From positions 62,001 through 126,000 of the forward strand of contig NZ_RJJD01000002.1 in the NCBI RefSeq assembly GCF_003721515.1: 64,000 nt of DNA, read 5' to 3'. The number at the start of each line of letters is the position of its first letter. The stretch's first letter is position 1. Below are positions 2,843-62,666 of the stretch, one piece after another. The DNA comes from Rufibacter latericius (GTDB taxonomy: Bacteria > Bacteroidota > Bacteroidia > Cytophagales > Hymenobacteraceae). The notes beneath the pieces are model-generated. The model saw only the letters and a list, made by a program, of their open reading frames with translations, ran no database searches and was not told the origin of the DNA. Position numbers and translations under genes: made by a program.

Positions 2843-2878
2843 GTTTAGGGGCTGTATTAAGTAAAGCAGCCCCTAAAC
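2843..2878. repeat. Intergenic palindromic repeat, copy 1 (possible terminator)
   Basis: Perfect 12-bp inverted arms GTTTAGGGGCTG / CAGCCCCTAAAC with a 12-nt loop, 11 bp after the permease stop codon. This is one of about 30 related palindromes in the window. It could act as terminator of the ABC operon, although no long T-run follows. Confidence 0.75.
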
Positions 2879-2943
2879 ACTGAATCTTTGCCAGAGGAAG
2901 AACAGACGACTCTTATCCCTTAACCTCGATTGTTTCAGTGATA

Positions 2944-2966
2944 TTTTCTGAAAAAGAGGCTTAAAT
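2944..2966. repeat. Intergenic palindromic repeat, degenerate copy 2
   Basis: Centre TTTTCTGAAAA followed by a right half-site ending AGGCTTAAA; the left half is eroded. Lies between convergent genes, 32 bp from the 3' end of the BNR lipoprotein gene. Confidence 0.4.
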
Positions 2967-2997
2967 CAGGTATACCAATTCCCTGCTTCTAAAATTC

Positions 2998-4242
2998 TTA
3001 TCCTTTCTTGTGGGCCGGCACGACCACCTGGTACCAGACTTCACTGTTCTTTCCCTGCTTTTTGGTGTAAGCTACCAGCACATTGGCGCTGGCTAATCCA
3101 AGAATGACGGGGTGCGTGGCACTGGTGGTATCTGACGTAAGAAAAGTTTGCCGCACTGGTTTCCCAACCGCATTCCTTACCTGTAGCCCGATTCTGGAGG
3201 AAAAGTTACCGGAGTTAGGAACTTGCTCGTCCCATACTAAGGCCAATTGATTTTCCCCGAAACTGGTTAATTGCGGATGTTTGGCCGAGGCTAGGCTGCT
3301 CACAGCTTCTCGCGGAGCGAAGGGGGTATTTTCCTTTTTATGGCTGTAGAAGACCCCACTTCCACCTCCCATGGTGTACCAGGCGGCGTGCAATCCTTGC
3401 TGGTTCCAGGCCAGGGTAGGACCGGTGTGAGGACACCCTTTGATGGCCCAGTTATCTAAACTGATGCGCTCCCGCGGCGCAAACGTTTTTCCATTATCAG
3501 AGGATACCAGGTGCATCATGTCCCGTATGCTGTCGTTGAGGATGGCTCGGTACGCGGTGTGCAGTTTTCCGGTCCCGTCCAAGAACAGATCGGTGCGGCA
3601 GCATTGGCAGAGTTGCTGGTCAATTACTTTTTCATAGGTGAAGCCCTGGCGCCCCCCAGTGGAGGAGAAGTAAAGCGAGGAACCTTCTTTGGGAGTGTTT
3701 TTGCGGGAATCGAGCCAAACCGCGGCAATCTCGCCGGTGGGCAGCACGGCCATGTCAAAGTACCGCTCGTCAATGCTGTTCTCGGCATCCTGGGCTAATT
3801 GCTTTGCCGCGGTCCAGGTCTTGCCTCCGTCAAACGATTGGGTGTATTTCACCAGTCCCGCATAGCTGTTCTCAGGGTTGGGGTTCTGGACCGCAAACAT
3901 GGCCAGGATGTCTCCATTGGGTTTGAAAAGCAATTTAGACAGGTTTTCGTCATGCGGGTAAACGCCCGCGGAGGTTGGAATGGCCGCCGGCTCCCCGAAG
4001 CTCCTGCCCCCATCAGTGGAGCGGGCGTACATTAGCAGGTGATTTCCCAAGGTATCCTGGGCCTGCACCCAGCATAGTACCGGGTTCCCTTTGTGGTCAG
4101 AAGTCAGGTAAGGGCAGGAGGCTTTCCTTTGCGCCATAGAGATTCTCTTCTCACCCGTCCCTGATTGGGTGGAATTCTGTCGACAACCTATCAGCAGGGA
4201 AAAGGAGATGAATAAAAGGAAAGAAGTAAAAAGTAATTTCAT
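2998..4242 (-). CDS. BNR/Asp-box repeat (sialidase-fold) lipoprotein with CxCC motif
   Basis: 414 residues from the ATG whose complement is at 4240-4242; an in-frame ATG 24 bp upstream (4266) would put eight residues before the signal peptide, so the shorter start is preferred. The signal peptide ends in lipobox L-I-G-C with Cys20. Asp-box repeats are visible as STDGGRSFG (about 75-83), SFDGGKTW (136-143) and SSDNGKTF (about 257), so a six-bladed beta-propeller is expected. A cluster CQCC at 212-215 and further Cys (SCPY at 43, GCPHTG further on) is unusual for a true sialidase and suggests a metal- or haem-related role. No RIP motif typical of sialidases is evident, so sialidase activity is not claimed. 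It is last in a minus-strand set after a TonB receptor and a Cys-rich small protein. Confidence 0.7.
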   Translation of the reverse strand: MKLLFTSFLLFISFSLLIGCRQNSTQSGTGEKRISMAQRKASCPYLTSDHKGNPVLCWVQAQDTLGNHLLMYARSTDGGRSFGEPAAIPTSAGVYPHDENLSKLLFKPNGDILAMFAVQNPNPENSYAGLVKYTQSFDGGKTWTAAKQLAQDAENSIDERYFDMAVLPTGEIAAVWLDSRKNTPKEGSSLYFSSTGGRQGFTYEKVIDQQLCQCCRTDLFLDGTGKLHTAYRAILNDSIRDMMHLVSSDNGKTFAPRERISLDNWAIKGCPHTGPTLAWNQQGLHAAWYTMGGGSGVFYSHKKENTPFAPREAVSSLASAKHPQLTSFGENQLALVWDEQVPNSGNFSSRIGLQVRNAVGKPVRQTFLTSDTTSATHPVILGLASANVLVAYTKKQGKNSEVWYQVVVPAHKKG

Positions 4243-4303
4243 GTATAGTTCAAATGAAGTCAGCACTTGGTTTAGGAATAAGATAAATGGTAAAACCGTT
4301 TAC

Positions 4304-4330
4304 GGGCTGTTTTATAAAAAGAGGGCCTAA
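4304..4330. repeat. Intergenic palindromic repeat, copy 3
   Basis: Half-sites CGGGCTGTTTT and AGGGCCTAA around a short A/T centre, lying in the gap between the TonB receptor stop and the BNR lipoprotein start on the minus strand. Confidence 0.5.
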
Positions 4331-4353
4331 GACTTAGTACATAAATACTTAGG
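4326..4353. terminator. Possible hairpin after the TonB receptor gene
   Basis: CCTAAG at 4326-4331 pairs with CTTAGG at 4348-4353. On the minus strand it lies about 30 bp after the receptor stop codon. The stem is short and the claim is weak; it also overlaps the palindromic repeat family. Confidence 0.25.
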
Positions 4354-4380
4354 CTGTTTTGTTTTAAGTAGAAGGACAGG

Positions 4381-7194: not shown

Positions 7195-7296
7195 TAATTC
7201 TAATAAAGGTAAGTGCTGGATTTAAGCCCAAAAAGCAAAACAAAACCCTTCAAGAACTCCCTTACCCACAACAAATCCCTAAAAGGAGGTTTGTCC

Positions 7297-7330
7297 TTTT
7301 AAGCCTGATTTCAGAAAAGTAGGTGTAAAC
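7297..7330. repeat. Intergenic palindromic repeat, copy 4
   Basis: TTTTAAGCCTGATTTC then AGAAAAGTAGG and TGTAAAC, a degenerate version of the recurring palindrome, 45 bp from the end of the DUF962 gene. Confidence 0.4.
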
Positions 7331-7374
7331 CTTACTTGTAACCTAGTACGGAGTTTATTTGAAAAAAGCAGCCT

Positions 7375-7845: not shown

Positions 7846-8034
7846 ACCTCTTTTTTACTTCAAGATACAAAATCATACACAGGAAGTAAATAGGGGAAAT
7901 AACTGGAAAAGGGGTGGTCTATAGTCGGTACCCAAAGAAGGGCAGGAGGTAAACGGAAGTTCTTTTGAGGGAACAAGCCCGGTCAGTTTATCTCCTTATA
8001 TCCTGCTGCTTCTTAAGGTATTCTTGAATCACAG

Positions 8035-8069
8035 TTTTAAGGCTGCTTTTAGAAAAAGGGATTGAAAAC
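8035..8069. repeat. Intergenic palindromic repeat, copy 5
   Basis: TTTTAAGGCTGCTTTT and AGAAAAAGGG then TTGAAAAC; lies in the divergent gap between the DUF962 and DPP III-like genes, only 30 bp before copy 6. Confidence 0.5.
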
Positions 8070-8097
8070 GACCTCTGTTCTTTAGCGGCCCTGTATT

Positions 8098-8128
8098 GAA
8101 CCTGTTTTCTGAAAAGTAAGCTTAAATC
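8098..8128. repeat. Intergenic palindromic repeat, copy 6
   Basis: CCTGTTTTCTGAAAAG followed by AAGCTTAAATC; second copy in the same divergent gap, about 65 bp upstream of the predicted promoter of the DPP III-like gene. Confidence 0.5.
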
Positions 8129-8167
8129 GAAAAATTAAAGACCTGATTTTGGTGGAACGGTGTGGTT

Positions 8168-10371: not shown

Positions 10372-10398
10372 GCAAGGCTCTTTAGGCACTAAATTCCT

Positions 10399-10462
10399 AA
10401 AACGGCCCTAAAACAGAAAATGCCTGATCTATCTCAGGCATTTTCTGTTTTAGGGCCGTTTT
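10399..10462. terminator. 29-bp perfect hairpin, bidirectional terminator (repeat copy 7)
   Basis: Arms 10399-10427 and 10434-10462 are perfectly complementary over 29 bp with a 6-nt loop. The outer arms contain the repeat half-sites (CGGCCCTAAAAC / GTTTTAGGGCCG), the inner part is AGAAAATGCCTGA. It sits between the convergent DPP III-like and DinB genes and is followed by T- or A-rich sequence on both sides. Confidence 0.85.
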
Positions 10463-10539
10463 GTTCAAAAGAATGTTAAAACGTATTTCAGTGGGGTTTC
10501 CTATTTTTTTATACCGCTTACGGAAAGATTAACGCACCT

Positions 10540-14132: not shown

Positions 14133-14268
14133 CGTAATCCTTAGGGTACTACCGCCTAAATCATCAAAGCCTTCAGATAAGGAGAGAATAGCTCGTTTTT
14201 GGGTTAGTTTAAAGCCATGTGGTTTAATTGTAGAGTAGCTTATCAAGGGGTAAAAGGGGAAAAGCTTA

Positions 14269-14302
14269 TTTTAGGGTCGTTTTCTGAAATACACCCACAA
14301 AA
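14269..14302. repeat. Intergenic palindromic repeat, copy 8
   Basis: Left half TTTTAGGGTCGTTTTCTG is well kept; the right half (ACACCCACAAAAC) is eroded. Confidence 0.5.
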
Positions 14303-14548
14303 CGCATCCAAAATCGTAAGGTAAAAGCTGAACTGAGTTTGAAGATTCGGAGGTGACACTTATGCCAAGATCTACAAAGCACCCTTCAGCGGCCTCTTAA
14401 AGGAAGGAGAAAATGTTGACTATAATGGAAAAGGAGTAGCAGCTCTAATCTCTGACTTACAAAGAAAGCAGCCTCACCGGTAGCTTTGGGATTATAGCCA
14501 ATTGATTTACCACCTATAAATATTACTACCAAAGAAATAATACAAACC

Positions 14549-16447: not shown

Positions 16448-16587
16448 TTACCTAAGAAGCACTTAAAGATAAAGAAGGTAGAAATCCTTTCAGTAAATGG
16501 CCGAAAAACCTAGGAACAACGGTTGGGGATCCTGCGCGACACAAGTTCGCAGCCTGAATTCATTTACCTACGCTACGGGACAAAAGC

Positions 16588-16620
16588 TTTAAGGCTATTT
16601 TGGTGAAAACAGCTTCAAAA
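16588..16620. repeat. Intergenic palindromic repeat, copy 9
   Basis: TTTAAGGCTATTTT and GAAAACAGCTTCAAAA with a two-base centre, between the convergent Fpg-like and PUR genes. Confidence 0.65.
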
Positions 16621-16637
16621 TGGGTAAGGAATAAAAA

Positions 16638-18460: not shown

Positions 18461-18463
18461 CGG

Positions 18464-18498
18464 TTCAAGGCCGTTTTCAGGAAAACACCTCCTAAACA
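18464..18498. repeat. Intergenic palindromic repeat, copy 11
   Basis: TTCAAGGCCGTTTTC and GAAAACACCTCCTAAA, starting 4 bp after the DUF58 stop codon. Confidence 0.6.
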
Positions 18499-20860: not shown

Positions 20861-20876
20861 ACTCCAGGAAGTTCTT

Positions 20877-20953
20877 ACACTAATAAAGCCGTTGCCGGTT
20901 TTAGGGCTGTTTACATAAATCAGCTCTAAAACCGGCAACGGCTTTATTAGTGT
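20877..20953. terminator. 33-bp hairpin, bidirectional terminator (repeat copy 12)
   Basis: Arms 20877-20909 and 20921-20953 are complementary over 33 bp with one mismatch and an 11-nt A/T loop. The inner part holds the recurring half-sites (TTTTAGGGCTG / CAGCTCTAAAA); the outer 20 bp of each arm are specific to this locus (for example AATAAAGCCGTTGCCGG). It separates convergent genes and its end is 6 bp from the hydrolase stop codon. Confidence 0.85.
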
Positions 20954-20958
20954 TATGG

Positions 20959-21912
20959 CTATTTAAGGGAGTTTACATAGGCTACCAGGGCGGGTACCAG
21001 GGAAGGTGCCAATGGGAGAGTGGGGTTGGCGTACGTTGCCAGATTGGCGTTTCGGTCTGAGGTGGTTTCTTTTAAGACGTGGTTCATGTGGTCAATCTCC
21101 ACCAGTTTGCTTTTAGGCGCGGCCGAGTTCAGTAAATAGGCTTCCTGCACGCTCACCTGCAAATCCTCCTTCCCCTGTACCAATAGCACCGGTATAGTCA
21201 TTTTCCCGATCACTTTCTGCGGATCATATTGAAACCAGGATATAAGATACGGCTGCACGCTGGGGCGGAACAAAGAAGTCAGCATGGGGCTCACCTCAGG
21301 AACGGCTTTACCTTGCGAAAGTTGGTCTAAGATAGGGAAGGCGGCATCGGTCACTGCTTTGGGTTGCCCCTGAAGTTGCTGCCGAATGATCTTATCGGCC
21401 GACTGCCCGGCGCCGGCTACGGAAATAAACCCATCGGCTTTCGCCTGCCGGGCCGCCATCATCCCGATCAGAGAGCCTTCACTGTGGCCCAGGACCACTA
21501 CTTTGCTGAACCTAGCATCTTGCTTTAACTTTTCTACCCAAGCAGCGGCATCGTGCACGTAGGTGTCAAAACGAAGATCAAACTCAGAAATAGCTGCGTC
21601 CTTGCTCTGGGCAATGCCGCGTTTATCGAAGCGCACCGAAGCGATTCCCTGTGCCTGCAACCCTTCGGCCACCATCTTCAGGCTGTTGTTTCTCATGGCG
21701 GGGTTGTTACCGTCCCGGTCAGTGGGCCCGGAACCGGAAAGAATCAGCACAACCGGTACCTTGTCGTTTGAAGAGGGCAGGAGTAACGTTCCTTTGAGGG
21801 TACCTTTTCCGGTCAATAACTCTATGGCTTCCCCTAAAGCAGGGTTCAAGTTCTGAGCGCTTGCCGAGTTACACAAGAACAGCAATACTAGGAGAAGCCT
21901 TAGGTTTTTCAT
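20959..21912 (-). CDS. Secreted alpha/beta hydrolase
   Basis: 317 residues with a cleavable signal peptide (MKNLRLLLVLLFL...SASAQ). The oxyanion-hole loop SGSGPTDRDGNNP (59-71), the nucleophile elbow GHSEGS with Ser144, an Asp in GKEDLQV and the His in DHMNHVL make a complete triad. The closest group is the serine aminopeptidase S33/dienelactone hydrolase-like set of secreted Bacteroidota hydrolases. Substrate unknown. Repeat copy 13 directly precedes the start codon. The dapA gene upstream is on the same strand with a 33-bp gap, so the two may be co-transcribed. Confidence 0.92.
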   Translation of the reverse strand: MKNLRLLLVLLFLCNSASAQNLNPALGEAIELLTGKGTLKGTLLLPSSNDKVPVVLILSGSGPTDRDGNNPAMRNNSLKMVAEGLQAQGIASVRFDKRGIAQSKDAAISEFDLRFDTYVHDAAAWVEKLKQDARFSKVVVLGHSEGSLIGMMAARQAKADGFISVAGAGQSADKIIRQQLQGQPKAVTDAAFPILDQLSQGKAVPEVSPMLTSLFRPSVQPYLISWFQYDPQKVIGKMTIPVLLVQGKEDLQVSVQEAYLLNSAAPKSKLVEIDHMNHVLKETTSDRNANLATYANPTLPLAPSLVPALVAYVNSLK

Positions 21913-21938
21913 CTGTTTTCAGGAAAAGGTACCCAAAA
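21913..21938. repeat. Intergenic palindromic repeat, copy 13, abutting a start codon
   Basis: CTGTTTTCAGGAAAAGG then TACCCAAAA on the plus strand. On the minus strand it ends in GAAAACAG directly followed by the ATG of the hydrolase gene, so it occupies the ribosome-binding position. Confidence 0.5.
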
Positions 21939-21945
21939 TAGAAAC

Positions 21946-22860: not shown

Positions 22861-22923
22861 CTGATTTGCATCCAGAGTGTAGATTGGTTACGAACGTTTG
22901 TTCTTTAAAGAAAGAACCACGCC

Positions 22924-22958
22924 TTTTTAGCCCGCTTTCTGAAAATAGGCCCTAAACC
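22924..22958. repeat. Intergenic palindromic repeat, copy 14
   Basis: TTTTTAGCCCGCTTTCTG and GAAAATAGGCCCTAAACC, between the LytTR regulator stop and the dapA promoter. Confidence 0.6.
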
Positions 22959-22986
22959 AAAAAGAAGATGCTTGCTTTACGGAAGG

Positions 22987-23741: not shown

Positions 23742-24779
23742 TCAGGACAAGGTGAGCGTGGCGATAAAATCCTGCTCTTCAAGGCAGGTGGTGAAGGTGA
23801 AGGCATTCGGGTACAGCAGTTCCAACCGTCTTCTGAGGTTCTGGAGCCCGATGCCCCCAAACGAATCCTTGGCTCCGGTGCCCATCTTCAACCGGTTTCG
23901 GGTGGTAAAGGTAAGCTGGCCGTTTTGGGTGCAAACGTGTACCTGCATGGGGGCGGAAGTTAAGCCGTGTTTGAACATATTCTCTACCAGGGGCATCAGG
24001 AGCATGGGCGGAACCGAGATGCCGCTGGTGTTTCCTGCCACTTCCATGGAAAGCAAGGTGGGATCTGTCAGCCGCAGGCGGTGCAGGTCCAGTAAGTGGG
24101 CCACATGCTCCAGTTCCCGCTCCAGGGGGACAACGGGGGTGTTTGTCTCGTAGAGTTGGTAACGCAACAGCAGGGAGAGCTTCAGGATGGCATCAGCGGT
24201 GTGGCCGGAGTTTTGATAGGCCAGGGAGTAGATGTTGTTTAAGGTATTGAACAGGAAGTGCGGATTTACCTGGGCTTTCAGCAGTTCCAGTTCGGTGCTG
24301 GTGTGTTGGAGTTCCAGTTCTTTGCGCCGCCGCTCGTTGCGCAGGTACTCGCCCGTAACTTTGAGGGAGGAACTCAGAAAGATGTTCATCAAACCCATGA
24401 CGCCCAACTGAATCAGCTGGGTTTCATATTCCAGCATGGAAGGATGTTTTGCCACCTGTTCGGCCAATTTAGTTGAGATGGTGGCCTCCTGTTTTATCTG
24501 AAAAATCTCAATGGGGCTGCGTACTCCTGAGAACACCGCCAAGGTGACCAGCACAGCCAAGGCATACCCCAACACATTCCCTTTAGCCAAAATGCGGAGG
24601 AGCACAAACCAATTAAAGTAAAAGAGGGCCAGGTGGAAGGCAAAGGTTTGCCCCACATCCATCGCTATCCAGGACAAAGGCAGATTGAGCCGATCAATGC
24701 GGAAATGCGTCCAGAGGGAGAAACCCAAAAGGGCAAGCCACAGCAAAACGTGGAGCAAAAGCGGAATGTGTTTTTTCAT
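23742..24779 (-). CDS. LytS/YehU-type sensor histidine kinase
   Basis: 345 residues. Four membrane helices occupy about residues 5-145 and sense an unknown signal; then comes the His_kinase domain with His174 in AQVNPHFLFNTLNN and a C-terminal ATPase-like domain (PPMLLMPLVENMFKHG and GGIGLQNLRRRL). No separate periplasmic sensor domain is visible. It is the partner of the LytTR regulator just downstream. Its ATG is directly preceded on the minus strand by repeat copy 15. Confidence 0.95.
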   Translation of the reverse strand: MKKHIPLLLHVLLWLALLGFSLWTHFRIDRLNLPLSWIAMDVGQTFAFHLALFYFNWFVLLRILAKGNVLGYALAVLVTLAVFSGVRSPIEIFQIKQEATISTKLAEQVAKHPSMLEYETQLIQLGVMGLMNIFLSSSLKVTGEYLRNERRRKELELQHTSTELELLKAQVNPHFLFNTLNNIYSLAYQNSGHTADAILKLSLLLRYQLYETNTPVVPLERELEHVAHLLDLHRLRLTDPTLLSMEVAGNTSGISVPPMLLMPLVENMFKHGLTSAPMQVHVCTQNGQLTFTTRNRLKMGTGAKDSFGGIGLQNLRRRLELLYPNAFTFTTCLEEQDFIATLTLS

Positions 24780-24780
24780 C

Positions 24781-24804
24781 GTTTTCCGGAAAACAGACCA
24801 AAAC
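24781..24804. repeat. Intergenic palindromic repeat, copy 15, abutting a start codon
   Basis: GTTTTCCGGAAAACAGACC then AAAAC. On the minus strand it ends GAAAAC one base before the kinase ATG. Confidence 0.5.
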
Positions 24805-24874
24805 TAACCAATCCATCGGGCTTCTGATGAAGTTTAGAAAGGAATTAGACCAAGCTGCCAATTGTATCGACGAA

Positions 24875-25948: not shown

Positions 25949-26725
25949 ATGAACACCTCTACCACTTACCTCAGCCGGGGAATCTCGGCGGAAGCTCTTA
26001 AACTGAAGCACACCTGGGCCTTGTGGCTGGCTTTTCTGGCCCCGCTTTCCATTGTGTCCATGAACTTTATGGTATTCTTCTTTAAGGGTCATCTGATTGT
26101 GAAGCCTGGTTCTGACCCTTGGTTTAACTGGGCGGGAAATAACTTTTCGGTCACGGCCCAACTGCTGGCGCCTTTGTTTCTGGCTCTACTAACGGCCTTG
26201 GTGAACGGAACGGAGCATCAGTCAGGAGGGTGGAAGCAGTTGTACGCGTTGCCGGTGCCCCGGGCCTGGGTGTTCCTGAACAAATACCTTTTGCTTTTGG
26301 GTTTGGTGATCCTGAGCTACGCCACTTTCTGGGCAGGGCTGTTGGCAAGCGGCTATTTGCTGGGGGAACTCCGCCCGGACCTTGGTTTTCAGAACTACCA
26401 CCATGAGCAGAGCATCAGCCTGAGTGCCTTCAGAATTCTGGTAGGTTCGCTCTTCATTTTTACCCTGCAATTCTGCCTTAGTTACCGGTTCAAAAGCTTT
26501 GCCATGGGCATCGGGTTGGGCATCCTGTTTACCCTGGCTTACCTCATCGGGGCAAGGTGGGAGTACATCGGGTACTATCCATACAGTTGGCCGGGGTTTT
26601 CGGCCATGGCTTCCCAAGCTCCGGGTGTCGCTTGGTTTGTGCCCCAAATGTGGTACAGCATGGTTTTCAGCGGGCTATTGCTGGCAGCGGCTCTGTTAGA
26701 TTCTTGCCGGAGGCAGGTGCACTAG
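25949..26725 (+). CDS. ABC-2 type transporter permease
   Basis: 258 residues from the ATG at 25949; a TTG at 25940 would overlap the ATPase stop and is less likely. Six hydrophobic helices are visible (about 20-45, 65-85, 110-135, 150-180, 180-205, 225-250). The first loops resemble the lantibiotic-type ABC permease family (LEALKLKHTWALWL opening, GGWKQLYALPVPRAWVF). It forms the membrane part of the exporter with the preceding ATPase. Confidence 0.88.
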   Translation: MNTSTTYLSRGISAEALKLKHTWALWLAFLAPLSIVSMNFMVFFFKGHLIVKPGSDPWFNWAGNNFSVTAQLLAPLFLALLTALVNGTEHQSGGWKQLYALPVPRAWVFLNKYLLLLGLVILSYATFWAGLLASGYLLGELRPDLGFQNYHHEQSISLSAFRILVGSLFIFTLQFCLSYRFKSFAMGIGLGILFTLAYLIGARWEYIGYYPYSWPGFSAMASQAPGVAWFVPQMWYSMVFSGLLLAAALLDSCRRQVH

Positions 26726-26727
26726 GT

Positions 26728-26760
26728 TTTGGGTCTATTTTCTTTAAATCAGCTTTAAAC
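26728..26760. repeat. Intergenic palindromic repeat, copy 16
   Basis: TTTGGGTCTATTTTC then TTTAAATCAGCTTTAAAC, starting 3 bp after the permease stop codon. Confidence 0.55.
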
Positions 26761-26770
26761 TGGAACGGAG

Positions 26771-27600: not shown

Positions 27601-27615
27601 GTCAAGGGGTATTTT

Positions 27616-27651
27616 GTTTTAGGGGTGTTTCCTTGAAAACGGCTTAAAAAC
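27616..27651. repeat. Intergenic palindromic repeat, copy 17
   Basis: GTTTTAGGGGTGTTTCC and GAAAACGGCTTAAAAAC; overlaps the last codons of the SDR frame by 8 bp and lies 15 bp upstream of the AlbA_2 gene start. Confidence 0.6.
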
Positions 27652-28492
27652 CAGTTTGTTCTGCGCTGATGTCCCACAAACGGCGTGCCACGTGGGCATT
27701 ATTAGAATCGGCGGCAGAAGGCACCTGTTTCTTGTTTTTGAAGTACTTACCTGAAACGTGTTTGAGGTACGGAGAAGTAGCCAGGTACACCAGAGTCTCC
27801 GCGCCTTTCGCCGGCGATTTCATGAAAACACTGGTTAACCGGATCAGGTGCCGGATAAAGAAGTTGCTGTTGCTTCCAAAGCCGCTGGCCACCACTCCCG
27901 GGTGCAGGCAATTCACCGTCAGGTTGGTGAACTCGGTGCGGCGGGCCAGCTCGTAGGTGAAATGGATGTTAGCCAGTTTGGAGTCTGCATAGGCGGTGAT
28001 GGCACTGTATTTCTGGGGCTTGCCGGCGTGCTCAAAGTCAATCTGGCCCAGCCGGTGCGCCTCTGAGGTAACGTTGATCACGCGGCCCTGTTCAGAGGCA
28101 AGCAAGGAATCCATGAGCAGGTTGGTGAGCAGGAAAGGAGCCAGGTGATTGGTGGCCCAGGCCAGTTCCCAACCGTCTGCGGTGGTTTGCTGATGTCCCG
28201 GAATCAGGCCAGCGTTGTTGAGGAGCACGTCTACCACAGGGTACTGATTTTTAAGCTCCTGGGCCAGTCGCCGAACCTCTTCCAGCGAAGACAAATCAGC
28301 CAGGTGCAGGTTCAGTTTAGCGCTGGGTACTTTCCGTTGGATGTCATCCAGGGCATGGCGGCCTTTCTGCTCGTTTCTACATACCATCACCACTTGATGC
28401 CCTTCCAACGCCAATGCCTCAGTGGCTGCCTTCCCAATACCCGAGCTTGCGCCCGTCACTACCATTACCTTTCCTTCTTTGTCTGCTATCAT
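27644..28492 (-). CDS. SDR family oxidoreductase (retinol dehydrogenase-like)
   Basis: 282 residues. The NAD(P) motif is TGASSGIGKA (17-26), NNAG is present (LLNNAG), and the catalytic Tyr-x-x-x-Lys is YADSK. The sequence has the extended loop and the EAHRLGQIDFEH stretch typical of retinol dehydrogenase/WW-oxidoreductase-like SDRs, whose bacterial substrates are not defined. The C-terminal codons overlap a repeat copy. Confidence 0.92.
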   Translation of the reverse strand: MIADKEGKVMVVTGASSGIGKAATEALALEGHQVVMVCRNEQKGRHALDDIQRKVPSAKLNLHLADLSSLEEVRRLAQELKNQYPVVDVLLNNAGLIPGHQQTTADGWELAWATNHLAPFLLTNLLMDSLLASEQGRVINVTSEAHRLGQIDFEHAGKPQKYSAITAYADSKLANIHFTYELARRTEFTNLTVNCLHPGVVASGFGSNSNFFIRHLIRLTSVFMKSPAKGAETLVYLATSPYLKHVSGKYFKNKKQVPSAADSNNAHVARRLWDISAEQTGF

Positions 28493-28586: not shown

Positions 28587-28611
28587 AATGCGACCCTTTT
28601 GGGGCCGCATT
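28587..28611 (-). terminator. Terminator of the DUF3127 gene
   Basis: AATGCG-CCC type stem of 10 bp; in the minus-strand RNA the one imperfect pair becomes a G-U wobble and a run of six U follows. It lies 28 bp after the stop codon. Confidence 0.8.
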
Positions 28612-30154: not shown

Positions 30155-30159
30155 GGTTG

Positions 30160-30194
30160 TTTCGGGGCTGTTTTTCGGAAAACAGCCCCAAAGA
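30160..30194. repeat. Intergenic palindromic repeat, copy 18 (good hairpin)
   Basis: GGGGCTGTTTT (30164-30174) and AAAACAGCCCC (30179-30189) pair perfectly over 11 bp with a TCGG tetraloop; it separates the convergent isoaspartyl peptidase and cyanophycinase genes and is probably their terminator. Confidence 0.8.
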
Positions 30195-30202
30195 AATACT
30201 GC

Positions 30203-35666: not shown

Positions 35667-35965
35667 TCACTCTTTTTACACGTTTTTATAAGATAACCTT
35701 TCCCTGTTTTGTTTAATAATTAAATCCCTTCCTCTGGGCTGCTCCTAATTAAACCTTTCGTTGTCTTCCAGTAAAATTCACTAATACGAAGACCAAGGGA
35801 ATGAAAAGGGGAGGTGTTTTGATTTGACGTTTTTGACCAGCTTTTTGGAAATGAATCTAAAAACAGTTGCCTGCCACAATGGCTTACCTTGGCTTTAGTA
35901 ATGAAAAATAGGAGGGAAAAACAAAAACCATAAAAAGAAAATAAAACGAAAATCTTCCATTAATG

Positions 35966-36030
35966 AGTTACAAAAATAAACCCTGTTTACATTTGTTAAA
36001 CAAATGTAAACAGGGTTTATTTTTGTAACT
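35966..36030. repeat. 65-bp perfect palindrome
   Basis: Arms 35966-35997 and 35999-36030 are perfectly complementary over 32 bp with a single central base. The arms carry AAAAATAAACCCTG and CTGTTTACATTTG (each read 5'-3'). It is unrelated to the 35-bp repeat family and sits 186 bp upstream of the HTH gene. Confidence 0.95.
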
Positions 36031-38649: not shown

Positions 38650-38663
38650 ACCTCGGCTTCTGA

Positions 38664-38697
38664 TTTTGGCCTGTTTTACAAAAAACAGCCTTGAAAC
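38664..38697. repeat. Intergenic palindromic repeat, copy 20
   Basis: TTTTGGCCTGTTTT and AAAAACAGCCTTGAAAC around a short centre, 15 bp after the regulator stop codon. Confidence 0.65.
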
Positions 38698-38825
38698 GGG
38701 AAAGCTCAATCCTCCTAACCTAAGGATAACGGTGGCATAACAATAACATAATGGCTGTTTGTGGCAGGTGTATTGTGTTAATTATCACCTTTATAGCAAG
38801 TTGTTGTTAGGGTTGCTGCCTTCTG

Positions 38826-45982: not shown

Positions 45983-46014
45983 AAATGCCTGTAAGTGTTT
46001 TCTTACAGGCATTT
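45983..46014 (-). terminator. Terminator of tRNA-Asp copy 1
   Basis: AAATGCCTGTAAG and CTTACAGGCATTT pair over 13 bp with a 6-nt loop, directly after the tRNA on the minus strand. Confidence 0.85.
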
Positions 46015-46023
46015 AAAAAACTG

Positions 46024-46097
46024 CGGTCCGGACGGGACTCGAACCCGCGACCTCCGCCGTGACAGGGCGGCATTCTAACCAACTGAACTACCGGACC
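46024..46097 (-). tRNA. tRNA-Asp (GTC), copy 1
   Basis: 74 nt. The complement starts GGTCCGG and ends CCGGACCG, giving a 7-bp acceptor stem with discriminator G; the anticodon loop holds CCTGTCACG (anticodon GTC) and the T-arm is GGTTCGAGTCC. CCA is not encoded. Identical to copy 2 at 47293-47366. Confidence 0.97.
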
Positions 46098-46167: not shown

Positions 46168-46220
46168 TGAATGGGGAGTAAAACTTATAAATTTATGAAC
46201 TTGTGGTTCATTTGTATTAA

Positions 46221-46250
46221 GCCCTCTCTCGGAAAAACACCCTTAAAACT
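46221..46250. repeat. Intergenic palindromic repeat, degenerate copy 22
   Basis: GCCCTCTCTC then GGAAAAACACCCTTAAAACT; right half recognisable. Confidence 0.3.
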
Positions 46251-46913: not shown

Positions 46914-46948
46914 TGTTTAGGGGAGTTTTCTGATTGCAGCCCCAAAAC
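46914..46948. repeat. Intergenic palindromic repeat, copy 23
   Basis: TGTTTAGGGGAGTTTTCTG then GCAGCCCCAAAAC. Confidence 0.55.
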
Positions 46949-47248: not shown

Positions 47249-47249
47249 A

Positions 47250-47283
47250 AAAGAGTCCCTTCACCAAAGTAAAGGGACTCTTT
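47250..47283 (-). terminator. Terminator of tRNA-Asp copy 2
   Basis: AAAGAGTCCCTT and AAGGGACTCTTT pair over 12 bp, 10-nt loop, just after the tRNA on the minus strand. The stem sequence differs from that of copy 1. Confidence 0.85.
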
Positions 47284-47292
47284 TAAAAACTG

Positions 47293-47366
47293 CGGTCCGG
47301 ACGGGACTCGAACCCGCGACCTCCGCCGTGACAGGGCGGCATTCTAACCAACTGAACTACCGGACC
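47293..47366 (-). tRNA. tRNA-Asp (GTC), copy 2
   Basis: 74 nt, identical to copy 1 at 46024-46097. The 45 bp of upstream sequence (47367-47412) also match copy 1 with only two differences, so promoter and gene were duplicated together. Confidence 0.97.
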
Positions 47367-48547: not shown

Positions 48548-48552
48548 TTCTG

Positions 48553-48588
48553 TTTTCAGGCTCTTTTTAGAAAACCAGGCTTAAATCC
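48553..48588. repeat. Intergenic palindromic repeat, copy 25
   Basis: TTTTCAGGCTCTTTTTAG then AAAACCAGGCTTAAATCC, 6 bp after the accA stop codon and 9 bp before the MBL gene start. Confidence 0.5.
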
Positions 48589-51578: not shown

Positions 51579-51624
51579 AAAAGTGTTTTGAGGCTGTTTT
51601 TTGTAAATCTGCTTCAAAACACTT
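51579..51624. repeat. Intergenic palindromic repeat, copy 26 (hairpin, possible terminator)
   Basis: AAGTGTTTTGAGGC at 51581-51594 pairs with GCTTCAAAACACTT at 51611-51624 (one mismatch); the centre resembles the repeat core. It is 21 bp after the acyltransferase stop. Confidence 0.75.
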
Positions 51625-52045: not shown

Positions 52046-52109
52046 AAAACGGGTCAGCCGTTTAGAGCCTGCTTTCGTGAAAATAGGCTCTAAACGGCTG
52101 ACCCGTTTT
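52046..52109. terminator. 25-bp perfect hairpin, terminator of smc (repeat copy 27)
   Basis: Arms 52046-52070 and 52085-52109 are perfectly complementary over 25 bp; the loop is 14 nt. The inner part holds the repeat half-sites (GTTTAGAGCC / GGCTCTAAAC), the outer AAAACGGGTCAGCC is specific to this locus. It ends 17 bp from the smc stop codon. Confidence 0.85.
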
Positions 52110-52125: not shown

Positions 52126-55100
52126 CTAAGCCGTCAATGCAGCCTGCGCCTCTGGTTCAGGAGCCAGGTCACGGAGGTCAACCGGGATGACCCTTGACAC
52201 GCCTACTTCCAACATGGTGATGCCGTAGATCACATCGGTGGAGACCATGGTGCGTTTGTTGTGCGTCACCACGATGAACTGCGAGTCGTTGGAGAACTTC
52301 TTCACGATGTTGTTGAACTTGTCAATGTTGGCATCGTCCAGCGGGGCGTCCACCTCATCGAAGATACAGAACGGAGCTGGCTTGAGCAGGTAGATGGCGA
52401 ACAGCAGCGAAATGGCCGTCAGTGTTTTCTCACCCCCGGATAGCTGGTTGATGGTCAACGGGCGTTTGCCTTTCGGCCGAGCCATGATCTCGATCTTCGA
52501 TTCCAGCGGGTTGCTTGGGTCCGCGATGTAAAGGTCACAAGTGTCTTCATCGGAGAAGAGGGACCGGAACACGCGCATGAAGTTCTCCTTGATCTGGTCA
52601 AAAGCCGCCAGGTATTTCTCCTTAGCCACGGTGTCAATCTCCGCGATGGTGTCCATCAACTGGGTCTTGGCATCCAGCAGGTCATTTTTCTGGGTCAGGA
52701 TGAAATGGTTGCGGGTGTCAATCTCCTGGTAAGCCTCGGCGGCCATGGGGTTCACCGGCCCAATGTTCTCCAGTTTACCCTTCACGCTTTGCACCTGCTG
52801 GCTCAGTTCCTCGTTGCTGATGTCCAGCTTCTCGGTAGGGGCCTCGGCTAGGTCCTCGGGGTTCATGTTGAACTCCGCAGACAGACGCTCAATCACGGAC
52901 ACCAACTTGATGCGAGTATCGGTGATGGCCTGGTTCATGGACTGGAAAACCTCATCGGTGTTCTGCTTCTTGCGCTGCAGCTCCCGGATGCTCTTTTCCT
53001 TTTCATCTATCTCACCGCGCAGCATGAAGTAGGTTTTCTCGATTTCCTCCAGCTCGCGGGTCATTTCTTTGCGGGCCACCATGCCTTCTTCCAGCAGGTT
53101 GTTCTGGTCTTCCACAAACTGGTCTAGCGATACGGTCTCGTCCTCGGCACGGTTCAGCTCGTCCTGCAATTGCACCAGACGTTCCTGGTGGTTCATGACG
53201 GTCTTCTGCTTGTAGGCCAATTCCTGCTGTATGCTCTGCAAACGGTTCTTGAGCTGGTGGAACTTTATGTTCTCCTGGTTGAAGATGCCGCTGACCTCGG
53301 TAATGATTTCGTTCTGTTTTTCCAAAACCTGGCTTAAACCAGAAAGCTCCTGCTCGTAGCTTTTCAGGGCCAGGTTCTTGCTCTCGGCATCCGGCATCAG
53401 GTCTGCCAGCTTGTCGCCCAGGTCCTGGATTTTCTCGAAGAGCTCATCTTTCTTGCTGGCCTGGTTCTGCTGGTTCAACAGGAACTGCTCGTAGCGCACT
53501 TTGTGGCTCACTAGTTCCTGCTGCAGGTTGTTGATGTCGCGCTCCTCCAAACGGATCTGCTCCTGTTGGGTAGATTCCTTCTGGTTCTGCAGCACCTGCT
53601 GCAAAGTAGTGATCTTCAACTTGATCTTTTCCTGCTCCTCCTGCAGCTCTTCCAACTCCTCGGCCAATTGCTCCAGGTTCTGCTTGCGGCCTAAACGGTT
53701 TCCGTCAAACAAGCCCACGGATCCACCAGCTAAACTCAACGGTTTTTTGATCGCCGATCCATCGGTAAGGATATAGGTGCGGCCATCGTTGAGGAAAAGC
53801 TCTGTTTCCGCGGAATCCGTGAGGTAGACTTCGCTGAGCATGAAGCGCAGGAGGGAGTGGTATTTCTCCTCGGCGGCTACCACTTCCAGGGCTGCTTTGT
53901 ATTTAGGTGTACTGATGGTATCGGGGATCTCCATTTCCTCCACCTCAGAGAGGATGATGAAGCTGGCGCGGCCCTTGTTCTGCTCTTTCAGTAATTCAAT
54001 TGCTTCCACGGCTTCCTCCGGTGAGTCCACCACGAAGAAGTTCATGTACGGCTCCAGGTACGTCTCAATGAGGTTCTTGTACTCGGGGTCGCAGGCAATA
54101 ATATCGGAGAGGAGCGGGGCGGGTTTCTCCCAGTTATCTGATTTATAGAGGAATTTGATGGCCTCGGGGAAACCTTCCAGGTTGTCCACCAGCGACTTCA
54201 TCAGGTTGTACTGGTTTTTCTTAGCGTCGTGCTCGCGGTTCAGGTCAATGAGGTGCTGGCGATGCTCGTGTAGCGTCTCCTCGGTTTTGGTCATCTCTGC
54301 CCGAAGCTGGTTCTCCGCATCCTGCAACTCGGCCAGGTTTTCCTGGGCCTCTTCCAGCATTATTTTGGTTTCGGCTAGCGCTGATTCATGCTGCTGCGCT
54401 ATTTCGTTCTCGTGACCTTCCATCTGCTGCAGGCGCTCCAGTTCCATCCGGTGGCTCTGCATCTGCACCTGCGTGATCTCAATGCTTTTGTTTACTGTGA
54501 ACGCCTCGTTCTGCACCTGGCGCTGGGCCATGGTTTTCTCCTGCAGCTGGCGGTTCAGATCGGCTTTCTGCTGGTTCACGTGCTCCAGCTCTTTTTTGGT
54601 GAGGCCCAGCTGCTCCTCAGAAATGAGCAACTCCTCCTGAATCTGCTCAAGATCATTCTGCAGCTGACCCAGGCTGTTCTCGGTCTGGCTGATGTTGGTA
54701 GTATCCTGGTTAATCTGGGTATTGAGCGTTTTCAAGCGCTCCTGCAGGTACATGTTCCGCTCGCTCTTCAGCTTGATTTCGTTTTCCAGCTGGCGCAGTT
54801 GCCCGGTATGGTCGTTGACTTCTTTCTGCTTGTTCTGCAGCTCGTGCTGGGTGCGGTCCAGCAGGGTTTTCTGCTCCTGCAGCGTATCTTCCAGCATGGC
54901 CAGCTCCTCAGAATAGGAGCCTTTGCGGTCGGTTTCTTTTTGGAGTTCGCTCTCCAAGCGCTCTAAAGCTTCCTGGTGGTGGCCGATGTTCCGGCGGGCG
55001 TACTCCAGGCTGAGTTTCTTGTATTCGTCTTTGAGGTTGAGGTAACGCTCGGCGGTTTTGGCCTGGCGCTCCAGACTTTTGAGGTTCTTCCCAATCTCGA

Positions 55101-55686: not shown

Positions 55687-55781
55687 ACACTACCGGCCAG
55701 TACTCCTGACCCCAAACCCAAAAATACTAAAAAGAGTTTTCAATTGGGCAAGTAATTAGGGGAGGACAAAGGGAGTTTTCG

Positions 55782-55810
55782 CCCTGGTTTTCAGAAAACA
55801 GGCCAAAAGG
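55782..55810. repeat. Intergenic palindromic repeat, copy 28
   Basis: CCCTGGTTTTCAGAAAACAG then GCCAAAAGGG: a compact copy with a clear centre. Confidence 0.6.
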
Positions 55811-55928
55811 GTTGATGCTAAAAAGTACAGAAATCTATTTTCAGGAAGGTGCCGCCCATATTTATGAAGGTTCTGTAAGACATTCCCATTAGAGCTTCAG
55901 GTTTTAATACCTGGGCAGAAGGATTAAA

Positions 55929-55986: not shown

Positions 55987-56652
55987 CTAAAAGTTGGTCA
56001 AGGCATACGCGATCAGGTTGGCTCCCATGCGTAGGGCTGCCTGATGCTTTTCTATAGGGTCATTGTGCACCGACTGGTCTTCCCAACCGTTGCCTAAATC
56101 ACATTCGTAGGAATAGAAACACACCAACCGTCCCTGGTAGATGATCCCGAAGCCTTGGGGCGGTTTGTTGTCATGCTCGTGGATTTTGGGGAGACCGCGG
56201 GGAAAATCGAATTTCTGATGGAAGACAGGGTGGTTGAAAGGCAGTTCAATGAAATCCAATTCCGGGAAGACTTTCTTCATTTCGCGCCGGGCGAACTTGT
56301 CCATGCCGTAATTATCGTCTATGTGCAGGAACCCACCGCCAGTGAGGTATTTGCGAAGGTTCTGAACCTCGGCCTCTGTAAAGATGACGTTGCCGTGGCC
56401 CGTCATGTGCACGAAGGGATAATCAAAGATTTCGGGGCTGCCGGGTTCCACCGTTTCTTCCTGCGGCGCGATGTTGGCCTTCAGCTCGCGGTTGCAGAAG
56501 GCAATCAGGTTGGGCAGGGAGGTTTTGTTTGCGTACCAGTCCCCGCCGCCCCCGTATTTAAGCCGGGCAATCCGGAAGCTGGGGCGTTGGGCCAACGCGG
56601 ATCCGGTGAAGACTACCAAAAGAAGACACCAAAGAAGAAGCCGTTTATGCAT
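55987..56652 (-). CDS. DUF4159 domain protein, secreted
   Basis: 221 residues with a signal peptide (MHKRLLLWCLLLVVFTGSALAQ). The DUF4159 core includes LKYGGGGDWYANKTSLPNLI, VHMTGHGNVIFTEAEVQNLR and YLTGGGFLHIDDNYGMD; the fold is flavodoxin/GATase-like and the family is mainly Bacteroidota and related phyla. Its function is unknown. It is 27 bp after rsmE on the minus strand with repeat copy 29 filling the gap. Confidence 0.92.
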   Translation of the reverse strand: MHKRLLLWCLLLVVFTGSALAQRPSFRIARLKYGGGGDWYANKTSLPNLIAFCNRELKANIAPQEETVEPGSPEIFDYPFVHMTGHGNVIFTEAEVQNLRKYLTGGGFLHIDDNYGMDKFARREMKKVFPELDFIELPFNHPVFHQKFDFPRGLPKIHEHDNKPPQGFGIIYQGRLVCFYSYECDLGNGWEDQSVHNDPIEKHQAALRMGANLIAYALTNF

Positions 56653-56654
56653 GG

Positions 56655-56678
56655 TTTTTCAGAAAAGGAGCGTAAAAC
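56655..56678. repeat. Intergenic palindromic repeat, copy 29, abutting a start codon
   Basis: TTTTTCAGAAAAGGAG then CGTAAAAC. It fills the 27-bp gap between rsmE and the DUF4159 gene; on the minus strand it ends GAAAAA two bases before the DUF4159 ATG. Confidence 0.45.
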
Positions 56679-56679
56679 G

Positions 56680-57393: not shown

Positions 57394-57395
57394 GC

Positions 57396-57427
57396 GGTTT
57401 TCAGATTAGAAGCTGTTTTCCCAAAAA
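57396..57427. repeat. Intergenic palindromic repeat, degenerate copy 30
   Basis: GGTTTTCAGATTAGAAGC then TGTTTTCCCAAAAA, starting 2 bp upstream of the rsmE ATG. Confidence 0.35.
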
Positions 57428-57464
57428 TAAAGCAAAAACGTTCATGACGGGCACTTAACTAAAA

Positions 57465-59299: not shown

Positions 59300-59356
59300 C
59301 CTCTTATAGGAACTCCAAACCTTTAAAAAAACAAACAATACTTTAATCTTTCCTTT

Positions 59357-60940: not shown

Positions 60941-60958
60941 GTTTTCTATCTTCATTGC

Positions 60959-60992
60959 AAAAGCCCCTGTCGATACTTCGGCAGGGGCTTTT
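60959..60992 (+). terminator. Terminator of the POT gene
   Basis: AAAAGCCCCTG and CAGGGGCTTTT pair over 11 bp, loop 12, followed by TTATTTTG; 19 bp after the stop codon. Confidence 0.85.
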
Positions 60993-61091
60993 TTATTTTG
61001 GCCTTCTTAAGGTCCCGAAAGAAATGGTAAATTTGTAGAAGTAGATAAGGCGAAGCATCCTTCTGCCCATCCTTGAAATTTAGAGAAGTCT

Positions 61092-61925
61092 GTGACCACC
61101 CGCAAACCAACAGGAAGAAAAGCTGCTCCCCGCAAAAAGCCCGCTGCCCAACAAGGTACCTGGTGGAAGCCCCTTTCCTTAGGGTTCGTGGCTTTTCTGG
61201 TTTTGTGTCTGGGCATTGAGTACTTTAAAGAGGGAGGTAGACTGGCCTTTCTGCGCCATAACCTGGAAGAAGCCACGCAGATCAACACAGCAACTACCTT
61301 TAGCCCAGCTGGGTTTGAGGTAAAAGGATTGGACATCTCGCACCACCAGCGGCAGATTGATTGGAAGGCTGTGAAGGCAAATAAGATAAAATTCGCCTTT
61401 ATTAAAGCCACCGAAGGGATTACCCATCAGGACCGGTACTTTGCCAGGCATTGGCGCCAGGCCAAAAAGCACGATGTCTTACGGGGTGCCTACCATTTTT
61501 TTCTACCGGCACGTGATGCCGAGGAACAAGCCCGCAGCTTTCTGAAAAAAGTGAAACTGGAAGCCGGGGACCTCCCGCCGGTCCTGGATGTAGAAGTAAC
61601 CAATCACCAGCCTGACGAAGAGATTAGGGCGGGGGTGCAACTTTGGCTGGATATGGTAGAGGAGGAGTATGACATCAAGCCCATCATCTACACCAACTAC
61701 GCCTTCTATGAAAAGCACCTGGCCGGGTATTTTGATGATTATCCCCTCTGGATTGCGCACTACAACCCTAAAAAGAGCCACCAGTTAGCCAACAGCACCT
61801 GGGCTTTCTGGCAGCACACCGAGACAGGCCGCATTAAAGGGGTACCCGGAAACTTGGACCTGAATGTCTTCAATGGCACCATGGAGGATTTGTACAACAT
61901 GTGCTACGAACCCGAAAAGCAATAA
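61092..61925 (+). CDS. Glycoside hydrolase family 25 (lysozyme-type muramidase)
   Basis: 277 residues starting with GTG at 61092. A basic N-terminus (TTRKPTGRKAAPRKKPAAQQ) precedes one hydrophobic helix (about 28-48), so the enzyme is likely held in the inner membrane facing the periplasm. The GH25 barrel follows (about 75-270): KGLDISHHQRQIDWKAV, FAFIKATEGIT, GAYHFFLP, LPPVLDVEV and YPLWIAHYN. The acidic residues typical of the family (Asp in LDIS, Asp and Glu in LDVEV) are present. It cleaves the glycan strand of peptidoglycan. Confidence 0.93.
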   Translation: MTTRKPTGRKAAPRKKPAAQQGTWWKPLSLGFVAFLVLCLGIEYFKEGGRLAFLRHNLEEATQINTATTFSPAGFEVKGLDISHHQRQIDWKAVKANKIKFAFIKATEGITHQDRYFARHWRQAKKHDVLRGAYHFFLPARDAEEQARSFLKKVKLEAGDLPPVLDVEVTNHQPDEEIRAGVQLWLDMVEEEYDIKPIIYTNYAFYEKHLAGYFDDYPLWIAHYNPKKSHQLANSTWAFWQHTETGRIKGVPGNLDLNVFNGTMEDLYNMCYEPEKQ

Positions 61926-62030
61926 TATGCTTTTCCTTATATTCCATCTTTTCTGGATCTTTCTTAATCAAGGCCCTAGAGTTTATGGTGTAAGGGAAAA
62001 TGCATAAATTGCGGGTTCTAATCCTAACCC

Positions 62031-62624
62031 ATGAAACCCTTTGTTACCAGAGTACCATTGCTGAAGGCAATGCCTTTCCTATTCCTGTCCTGTGAAGTTG
62101 TAGATGAAGTTGTGGAGCCGAAAACCCCGGAAGTAGAAGAAGGAACAACCTACTCCATTGGTTCTGGAAACCATGAAACTACCAATCCGCTGAAGATTCT
62201 AAGCACCAACACCCTCAAGTTTGAAGTCAGGTTCGATTCTACAGCCATTTACGCCACCAAGGACCCAAGCAACCAAGCTGATATCAACAAGCTTTACGGA
62301 ATGTCAGATTGTGGCACGTTTCACCACGAAAACAGCGCCCGTTTTGGCTGGCGCTGGTACCAGAACAAACTTGAATTGCATGCCTATTCCTATAACGAAG
62401 GCAAAAACACCTCTACCTTCATTACGGCCATTGACCTGAAGAAGAACTACACTTGCGAGCTCACCCTCACCGATACCAAGTACGTTTTCAAAGTGAGAGG
62501 GAAGACAGTAGAACACGCCCGAGCCTGTACCGGCGAAGGAAAAGGATATCAGCTTTACCCTTATTTCGGAGGCGATGAAACCGCTCCCCATGAAATTAAG
62601 ATCAAAATCAAAGCACTAAAGTAA
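62031..62624 (+). CDS. Putative lipoprotein, beta-rich
   Basis: 197 residues. The N-terminus MKPFVTRVPLLKAMPFLFLSC has Cys21 in a lipobox-like LFLSC. The rest is beta-rich (LKFEVRFDSTAIY, NKLELHAYSYNEGK, ELTLTDTKYVFKVRG) and may be a lectin-like sandwich. A Cys pair (SDCGTF and YTCEL, with RACTG later) could form a disulfide. No family recognised. Single gene, repeat copy 31 follows. Confidence 0.65.
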   Translation: MKPFVTRVPLLKAMPFLFLSCEVVDEVVEPKTPEVEEGTTYSIGSGNHETTNPLKILSTNTLKFEVRFDSTAIYATKDPSNQADINKLYGMSDCGTFHHENSARFGWRWYQNKLELHAYSYNEGKNTSTFITAIDLKKNYTCELTLTDTKYVFKVRGKTVEHARACTGEGKGYQLYPYFGGDETAPHEIKIKIKALK

Positions 62625-62630
62625 GCTACC

Positions 62631-62666
62631 GTTTAGAGGCTGTTTTGAAGAAAAGGACTTTAAAAC
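62631..62666. repeat. Intergenic palindromic repeat, copy 31
   Basis: GTTTAGAGGCTGTTTTG then AAAAGGACTTTAAAAC, 7 bp after the lipoprotein stop codon. Confidence 0.6.

Follow-up and report, generated by a model that had tools for sequence, protein, structure and literature searches.

Repetitive extragenic palindromic (REP) repeats of bacteria, as portrayed in the sections of PMC3733652 used here, are palindromes of 20-40 bp that occur in high copy number downstream of coding regions and bear a one-sided tag (GTAG or CGTC), the GTAG kind being accompanied by a cognate REP-associated tyrosine transposase (RAYT). DNA uptake sequences (DUS) of the Neisseriaceae, in the portion of PMC3630211 available to us, occur in more than 1000 copies, form species dialects and are found as inverted pairs at terminators. 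In this report, we describe a 38-bp dyad that is dispersed through a 64,000-nucleotide stretch of the Rufibacter latericius genome (contig NZ_RJJD01000002.1, positions 62,001 to 126,000; the whole stretch is called the window below), and we propose, with a probability of about 0.55, that it is the binding site of a homodimeric or otherwise two-fold symmetric, genus-specific putative DNA-binding protein on most transcription-unit boundaries. Most copies evolve like protein docking sites rather than RNA hairpins or jumping repeats. Fixed geometry, near-independent halves, a held frame, a variable centre, the lack of a preference for G-T mispairs and species dialects together point to a site for a symmetric protein, and since junctions carry about one site each, for the most part where genes end, this protein may mark the ends of transcription units.

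The dyad is comparable in part to several described systems. It is like REP repeats and bacterial interspersed mosaic elements (BIMEs) with their RAYTs, so far as the sections cited describe them, in its size, copy number and place near gene ends, but it has no one-sided tag, no cognate RAYT was found in its own genome, its arms mostly do not covary and its positions are largely fixed between species. With DUS, in the portion of the source cited, it shares copy number, dialects and inverted pairing, whereas our sites are as a rule inverted pairs around a 4-bp centre, keep out of coding sequence and number about one per junction. Similar, too, are operators of global regulators and sites of nucleoid proteins, in being dyads with near-independent halves, a conserved contact frame and a variable centre; unlike such operators, our dyad sits at 3' ends and, of the genera searched, is limited to a single one. 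A minority of dyads are near-perfect hairpins, some with T-runs, in the manner of bidirectional intrinsic terminators, but most cannot form a full stem. An ordinary regulon has far fewer sites than the count of this dyad. RNA hairpins or Rho are the usual explanation for how bacterial transcription ends. Nothing on the 38-bp repeat was found in literature searches that covered Rufibacter, intergenic palindromes and REP/RAYT elements in Bacteroidetes, genus-specific palindromic motifs in thousands of copies, DUS dialects, roadblock termination, and REP/BIME repeats with gyrase, and Rufibacter occurs 0 times in the main text of PMC12306157 and PMC6006769. Our data hint at an undescribed genome-wide boundary system.

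Abundance and structure of the dyad

The genome of R. latericius (G000, the own genome in what follows) comprises 5.67 Mb in 23 contigs. Sites were scored with a symmetric position weight matrix for the 38-bp site, at a cut-off of at least 18 bits in the window, and genes were called with a home-made program based on open reading frames and hexamers. The window contained 34 sites, 28 outside predicted genes and six inside, and 50 Markov shuffles of it contained none at the same cut-off. Matrices were refined on the very sequences that they scored, and the window count was redone with a second matrix, for which contig C10 was the only training sequence; this again gave 34 sites, six of them in genes, and none in shuffles. 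A dispersed repeat had been picked out earlier by a sequence-only reading of this stretch, and its existence is borne out by the count of 34 against none in shuffled sequence. Ten of the 11 example coordinates from that reading were recovered within 8 bp; the remaining copy, at 46914, is weak (16.4 bits with one matrix, 15 with another and uncalled at 14 with a third). Across 464 kb of the own genome, 261 to 282 sites were called, depending on the matrix used. A search at no more than three mismatches hit 132 places in the own genome and none with the reversed control, and the frame pattern GTTT-N9-TTT-N4-AAA-N9-AAAC at no more than one mismatch matched 1583 places against nine for the reversed control.

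The whole site reads (Y)GTTTnnGGCTGTTTT-N4-AAAACAGCCnnAAAC(R), in which each half is YGTTTnnGGCTGTTTT and the halves face one another over 4 bp. This geometry is nearly invariant: among 169 inward pairs of half-sites at score 12, the spacing was 4 bp in 145, 3 bp in 15, 5 bp in seven and 15-16 bp in two, so that the centre of 2-10 bases first suggested narrows to 4 bp. An opposite half scoring at least 0 accompanied 76% of strong forward halves, compared with 0.9% of random positions. The two ends, YGTTT and AAACR, mirror each other, and the halves are nearly equal; the one-sided GTAG or CGTC tag of REP elements was not found at the dyad. In 361 oriented sites from six genomes, positions 3, 4, 14 and 15 were T (A in the other half) in 96-99%, and at positions 5-13 the commonest base reached 34-82%. 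Outside the Y that precedes GTTT, no position exceeded 0.13 bits in the own genome. Fixed spacing, independent half-sites and conserved contact positions, which are features of an operator, are thus all present in the dyad, except at positions 5-6 and in the minority of copies that form hairpins.

Pairing between the arms

A dyad may be read in DNA by a symmetric protein or in RNA as a hairpin, and the two differ in how the arms should vary. In 235 intergenic copies from the own genome, the paired fraction was approximately the product of the half-site frequencies at most positions, and the centre paired below expectation (z -4.4). Copies of the own genome were also divided into two classes by one pair position, at which the pairing figures are consequently biased, and alignments of 70 of the 171 class I sites and all 26 class II sites were counted. 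In class I, 67.3% of cells were paired, compared with 69.1% in shuffles. Class II, which accounts for 28 of the 261 own-genome sites, was paired in 92.3% of cells compared with 82.4% in shuffles, with 48 doubly changed cells compared with 19, and its outer arms kept their pairing without conservation of sequence. When mispairs were read along the gene in the 361 gene-oriented sites, G-T (434) was as frequent as A-C (432); since RNA should prefer G-T, most copies do not appear to be maintained as RNA. The number of copies with at least 13 of 16 positions paired was at or just below the shuffled expectation in four of six genomes.

These results leave little room for a family of RNA hairpins, either intrinsic terminators or 3'-end stabilizers, as an account of the repeat as a whole, and we consider it quite improbable. 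Such a family would explain the 34 of 261 own-genome copies that reach this level of pairing (at least 13 of 16 positions), with stems extending outward and a T-run nearby in a fraction of 0.41 compared with 0.11 of the rest (0.15-0.50 and 0.08-0.13, respectively, across the six genomes), as well as the strong covariation of class II. It does not explain a majority without pairing beyond independence and with G-T equal to A-C, or a conserved T tract that lies inside the stem and not 3' of it; moreover, at Rfam gathering scores only two tRNAs were matched in the window, and the repeat was without a match. RNA covariation was therefore rejected as a unifying principle for the bulk of copies, given no excess pairing and no G-T preference, and kept for about one-tenth of those in the own genome. 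The claim that the arms vary together holds for this minority, which are true hairpins, and fails for about nine-tenths of own-genome copies, whose arms do not vary together; likewise, the role in termination or RNA processing that had been offered does not suit most copies and may apply to the hairpins. A stem-loop conserved by pairing, as in REP elements, was also not found outside the class II minority.

Placement relative to genes

Site density was 5.0 per kb in convergent gaps, 3.2 in tandem gaps, 2.1 in divergent gaps and 0.12 in genes. When gaps of at least 120 bp were summed over six genomes, a site occurred in the first 60 bp past a gene 3' end in 152 of 462 cases; for the final 60 bp ahead of a start, the count was 31 of 572. 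The statement that copies lie essentially never inside a gene was nearly right: in-gene sites made up three of the 170 placed in G060, G012 and G048, six of 92 in G045, 11 of 77 in G057 and 38 of 261 in the own genome, and the high shares in the last two probably arise because their matrices, the most degenerate, admit weaker matches. On contig C10, none of 43 tandem gaps shorter than 20 bp, which are likely to be inside operons, held a site, compared with 37 of 41 gaps longer than 250 bp. Among 202 gaps of 120-1500 bp, exactly one site was found in 121, where 74 would be expected from an equal Poisson distribution and 63 from gap length, and the number of sites per gap was more even than chance (variance/mean 0.44). 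Where a convergent gap held two sites, each stop had one centred no more than 75 bp away in ten of 11 cases, and this was so even when the gap was 500-950 bp long.

The same placement bears on the strongest rival, in which the protein that docks at the dyad is nucleoid-associated or a type II topoisomerase and takes up supercoils downstream of genes; the 3' placement would then reflect where supercoils collect, together with avoidance of promoters. The 3' and convergent enrichment, the presence of about one site per junction and the near-symmetry at the DNA level would all be expected, and a fixed centre of 4 bp is reminiscent of the stagger of gyrase, also 4 bp. However, convergent gaps with two sites have one by each stop and not in the middle of the gap, and gyrase and HU-type proteins are, to our knowledge, near-universal, whereas the site is limited to a single genus of those searched and shows dialects. 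We judge this rival unlikely.

Placement and half-site structure also bear on a putative role in DNA uptake or self-recognition, by analogy with the DUS of Neisseria and their dialects. Copy number of the same order, dialects and terminator-linked intergenic inverted pairs recall DUS as described in the available portion of PMC3630211, and lone strong half-sites do occur (approximately 62 of 258 forward halves had an opposite score below 0, compared with 38 halves in shuffled sequence). Most half-sites, however, are in exact dyads, genes are avoided and there is about one site per junction, whereas intragenic DUS are called common in that portion of the source (PMC3630211), and such a role seems to us very improbable.

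Distribution, conservation and mobility

All 16 searched genomes of the genus carry sites, from 18 to about 1300 each at no more than three mismatches, compared with two of 184 other genomes of the family, which had one or two matches. In a sample of the order, the frame pattern matched 1583, 809 and 1586 places in three genomes of the genus against nine, 12 and nine for the controls, and in the other 228 genomes the counts, judged by eye, were near those of their own controls, with the exceptions of G302, G325 (37 against five) and, mildly, G003 (27 against 15). G302, which belongs to another family of the order, had 222 matches against 48, and among its matches listed is a different palindrome-like repeat, GTTTTGGGCAATTTTTGCCCAAAAC. 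The exact core palindrome was found in at least 120 stretches of named genome contigs, and the 80 listed are from Rufibacter save two from Sabulibacter and five scattered others. Viral contigs contained no exact match to the consensus.

Sites were compared between species at orthologous positions, using 56 aligned pairs (27 distinct sites) of 130 after 74 gapped pairs were dropped; the pairs are not independent. Identity was 0.915 in the frame, 0.705 in the core, 0.554 in the centre, 0.715 in the flanks and 0.725 at other gap positions. Core identity is approximately that of the background and frame identity is higher, and thus the core drifts while the T/A frame is held. In 361 orthologous gap pairs, again not independent, there was agreement on presence for 173 of 189 pairs and on absence for 154 of 172. 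When the own genome was compared with G045 at 43 gap pairs with a single site, 25 sites lay within 5 bp of the same place, compared with six by random placement. Sequence preferences shift by species: the preferred core is GTTTAGGGGC in G045, GTTTTCGGGCTCA in G048 and GTTTTnGGCCTG in G060, and the preferred centre is TCCA in 34 of 92 G045 sites and CCAG in 22 of 50 G048 sites.

Gains and losses were followed in a few gaps. Intergenic region (IGR) 25 measures 144-148 bp in nine relatives and 146 bp in the window; a good site is shared at one position by two of these relatives, a third carries a weaker site at another position, and the window lacks a site. IGR 30 measures 303-326 bp, and three of nine relatives have sites, at three different places. 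IGR 29 measures 168 bp in G045 and 188 bp in G012, both with a strong site and about 100 bp longer than the others. The gap is 69-94 bp long in the remaining six relatives, and a single one of them, G063 with 94 bp, carries a site. In the few cases looked at, site gain was accordingly accompanied by near-constant length in IGR 25 and IGR 30 and by greater length in IGR 29. No gaps are needed to align the in-gene sites of the M1 peptidase and SMC genes across relatives.

A mobile repeat resembling REPs or miniature inverted-repeat transposable elements (MITEs), spread at the root of the genus and partly co-opted since, would account for many extragenic, palindromic copies, for copy numbers ranging from 18 to 1300 at three mismatches, for the sharp species-specific consensus, centre included, in G045 and G048, and for the greater length of IGR 29, by about 100 bp, in G012 and G045, where its strongest sites occur. 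Against it stand orthologous positions within a few base pairs and conserved presence and absence, gains at near-constant length in IGR 25 and IGR 30, in-gene sites without insertions or deletions, and the different rates at which frame and core diverge. The transposase searches likewise provide no support. The single Y1_Tnp (RAYT-type) match in the own genome (L160:1321-2040, in a 3.25-kb locus) is interrupted by a TAG in its frame, and copies of another repeat, CTTCAAGTTTGAGCGAAGCGGTAACTTG and its complement, lie on its flanks; two dyad sites, at 2301 and 2478, are present on one side only. No cognate RAYT flanked by the dyad was found among the flanks looked at, which were those of the own genome, and G017 has no Y1_Tnp match at an E-value of 0.001, yet about 300 sites. 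A REP/RAYT origin was therefore rejected, since the Y1_Tnp searches yielded no link and the L160 gene, the one match in the own genome, combines an in-frame TAG with a different flanking inverted repeat. The dyad is probably not a moving repeat, and we rate this origin as a rather remote one; the REP/MITE-like role in the sequence-only reading is not supported.

A putative boundary protein

Of the three roles first offered, that of a global regulator's operator suits the data best, with one addition: the ends of transcription units have sites more than promoters do. Our working model is that a putative protein binds the dyad and that the bound protein would act as a bidirectional barrier just downstream of genes, which could stop read-through and antisense transcription and so insulate neighbours; a minority of dyads may be built into the hairpin of an intrinsic terminator, with both acting together. 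In its full form, the model posits a protein-dependent, DNA-encoded boundary system, in which almost all transcription-unit ends bear one symmetric 38-bp site, readable from either side by a protein that ends or insulates transcription genome-wide and co-evolves with its sites into dialects; we offer this full form tentatively, as a possibility that falls short of even odds. If true, it would be a natural case of chromosome-wide transcription boundaries set by a protein, or of a link between a nucleoid protein and gene ends, and the dialects would constitute a system for studying the joint change of a DNA-binding protein and more than 1000 sites.

Several observations weigh against a symmetric docking site of this kind. 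The central dinucleotide (positions 18-19) is self-complementary less often than independent halves predict, clearly so in five of six genomes (in G045, four of 92 sites compared with 30.8 expected), and this asymmetry is unexplained by a plain dyad; no consistent orientation bias of the asymmetric centre with respect to gene direction was found in the six genomes. In each of the six, the half on the side of the upstream gene has a slight advantage in score, by a mean of 0.3 to 3.3 bits, which exceeds two standard errors in G000 and G045, and it is the better half in 199 of 361 sites. Some of the pairing data also point to RNA: positions 5 and 6 covary in the 235 own-genome copies (z 4.0 and 2.9), the bases just outside the site covary weakly in the same genome (z 2.1-2.4), hairpin-like copies are in excess in G000 (34 compared with 14.6) and G057 (eight compared with 3.6), and 23 of 27 core pairs changed on both sides between species stay paired. 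This last figure comprises 17 of 18 in comparisons with G045 and the named L loci and six of nine in the others, and the symmetric dialect of G045 may explain the 17.

Placement raises further difficulties. At least one site is present in 33 of 55 divergent gaps, which are without any 3' end; in the window, two sites or more extend over a start codon; and the distance from site to stop is less than 10 bp in 40 of 226 cases, which is too close for a simple roadblock. Stop-adjacent sites, start-codon sites and divergent-gap sites are thus all unexplained by a simple roadblock. In addition, terminator-like hairpins occur at 72 of 128 3' ends that have a site and, just as often, at 26 of 51 that have none, compared with 18 of 112 in 5' controls. 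The idea that a site takes the place of a terminator was rejected, there being no anti-correlation between the two.

Sites and other features of the window

All coordinates below are those of the window, and the sites, being symmetric, are given without a strand. The convergent gap at the left holds a dyad of the hairpin class (2842..2879; 15 of 17 positions paired) 10 bp past the stop of a + strand gene and a second dyad (2931..2968) 29 bp from the stop of a - strand gene. Dyads in tandem gaps between - strand genes follow at 4297..4334 and 7295..7332, and a divergent gap contains one at 8033..8070 and a second, called by the matrix, at 8092..8129. A weak dyad of 20.2 bits (10378..10415) lies 6 bp past the stop of a + strand gene, with a matrix-called second in the convergent gap at 10446..10483. 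Further sites are present in a divergent gap at 14267..14304, in a convergent gap at 16585..16622, where a site was called in three of three relatives with the gap, and immediately past the stop of a + strand gene at 18461..18498 (seven of seven relatives with the gap). The dyad at 20896..20933 lies in a convergent gap (20861-20958) that is itself a long inverted repeat round the dyad; in G045 the outer arms differ in sequence and still pair.

Start codons are overlapped at 21903..21940, where the dyad lies over the start of the - strand gene ending at 21912 and 5 bp from the stop of the next gene, and at 24769..24806, over the start of a - strand gene in a divergent gap, with a site called in eight of eight relatives with the gap. 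Between these two is a dyad in a tandem gap of - strand genes (22922..22959). The dyad at 26725..26762 is at the stop of a + strand gene, and that at 27615..27652 occupies a 43-bp gap, overlapping 9 bp of its neighbour's 3' end, and was called in eight of nine relatives. A near-consensus copy (30158..30195) is in a convergent gap, and the dyad inside the M1 peptidase gene (32353..32390) is collinear in nine relatives with no insertion. One dyad is in a tandem gap of + strand genes (35828..35865), and the top-scoring dyad of the window (38661..38698) is 11 bp past a stop. A weaker matrix call of 23.8 bits was made at 46213..46250.

The dyad at 48551..48588, 3 bp past a stop, was called in nine of nine relatives, and another (51584..51621) is 24 bp past the stop of a + strand gene. 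The gene for SMC, on the - strand, has three dyads in or about it: one of the hairpin class 29 bp from its stop (52059..52096), one inside it (53304..53341), collinear in nine relatives and degraded in G045 and G012, and one 87 bp upstream of its start (55774..55811). At 56642..56679, a dyad right at the stop of a - strand gene lies in a 60-bp gap (called in eight of nine relatives), and at 57403..57440 one is found 9 bp upstream of the start of a - strand gene (nine of nine). The dyad at 62630..62667 is 5 bp past the stop of a + strand gene and is followed by a terminator-like hairpin at 62679-62709.

The window has other inverted repeats and hairpins. A perfect 19-bp inverted repeat with a 3-bp centre, AAACCCTGTTTACATTTGT, lies at 35978-36018 and does not match the dyad frame. 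A hairpin at 28587-28611, AATGCGACCCTTTTGGGGCCGCATT, lies upstream of a - strand gene; its stem is largely kept in nine relatives with the gap, most of which varies, and it is a possible regulatory element. Two tRNA-Asp (GTC) genes approximately 1.27 kb apart (46023-46097 and 47292-47366) each have a strong hairpin beside them, at 45983-46014 and 47249-47284, respectively.

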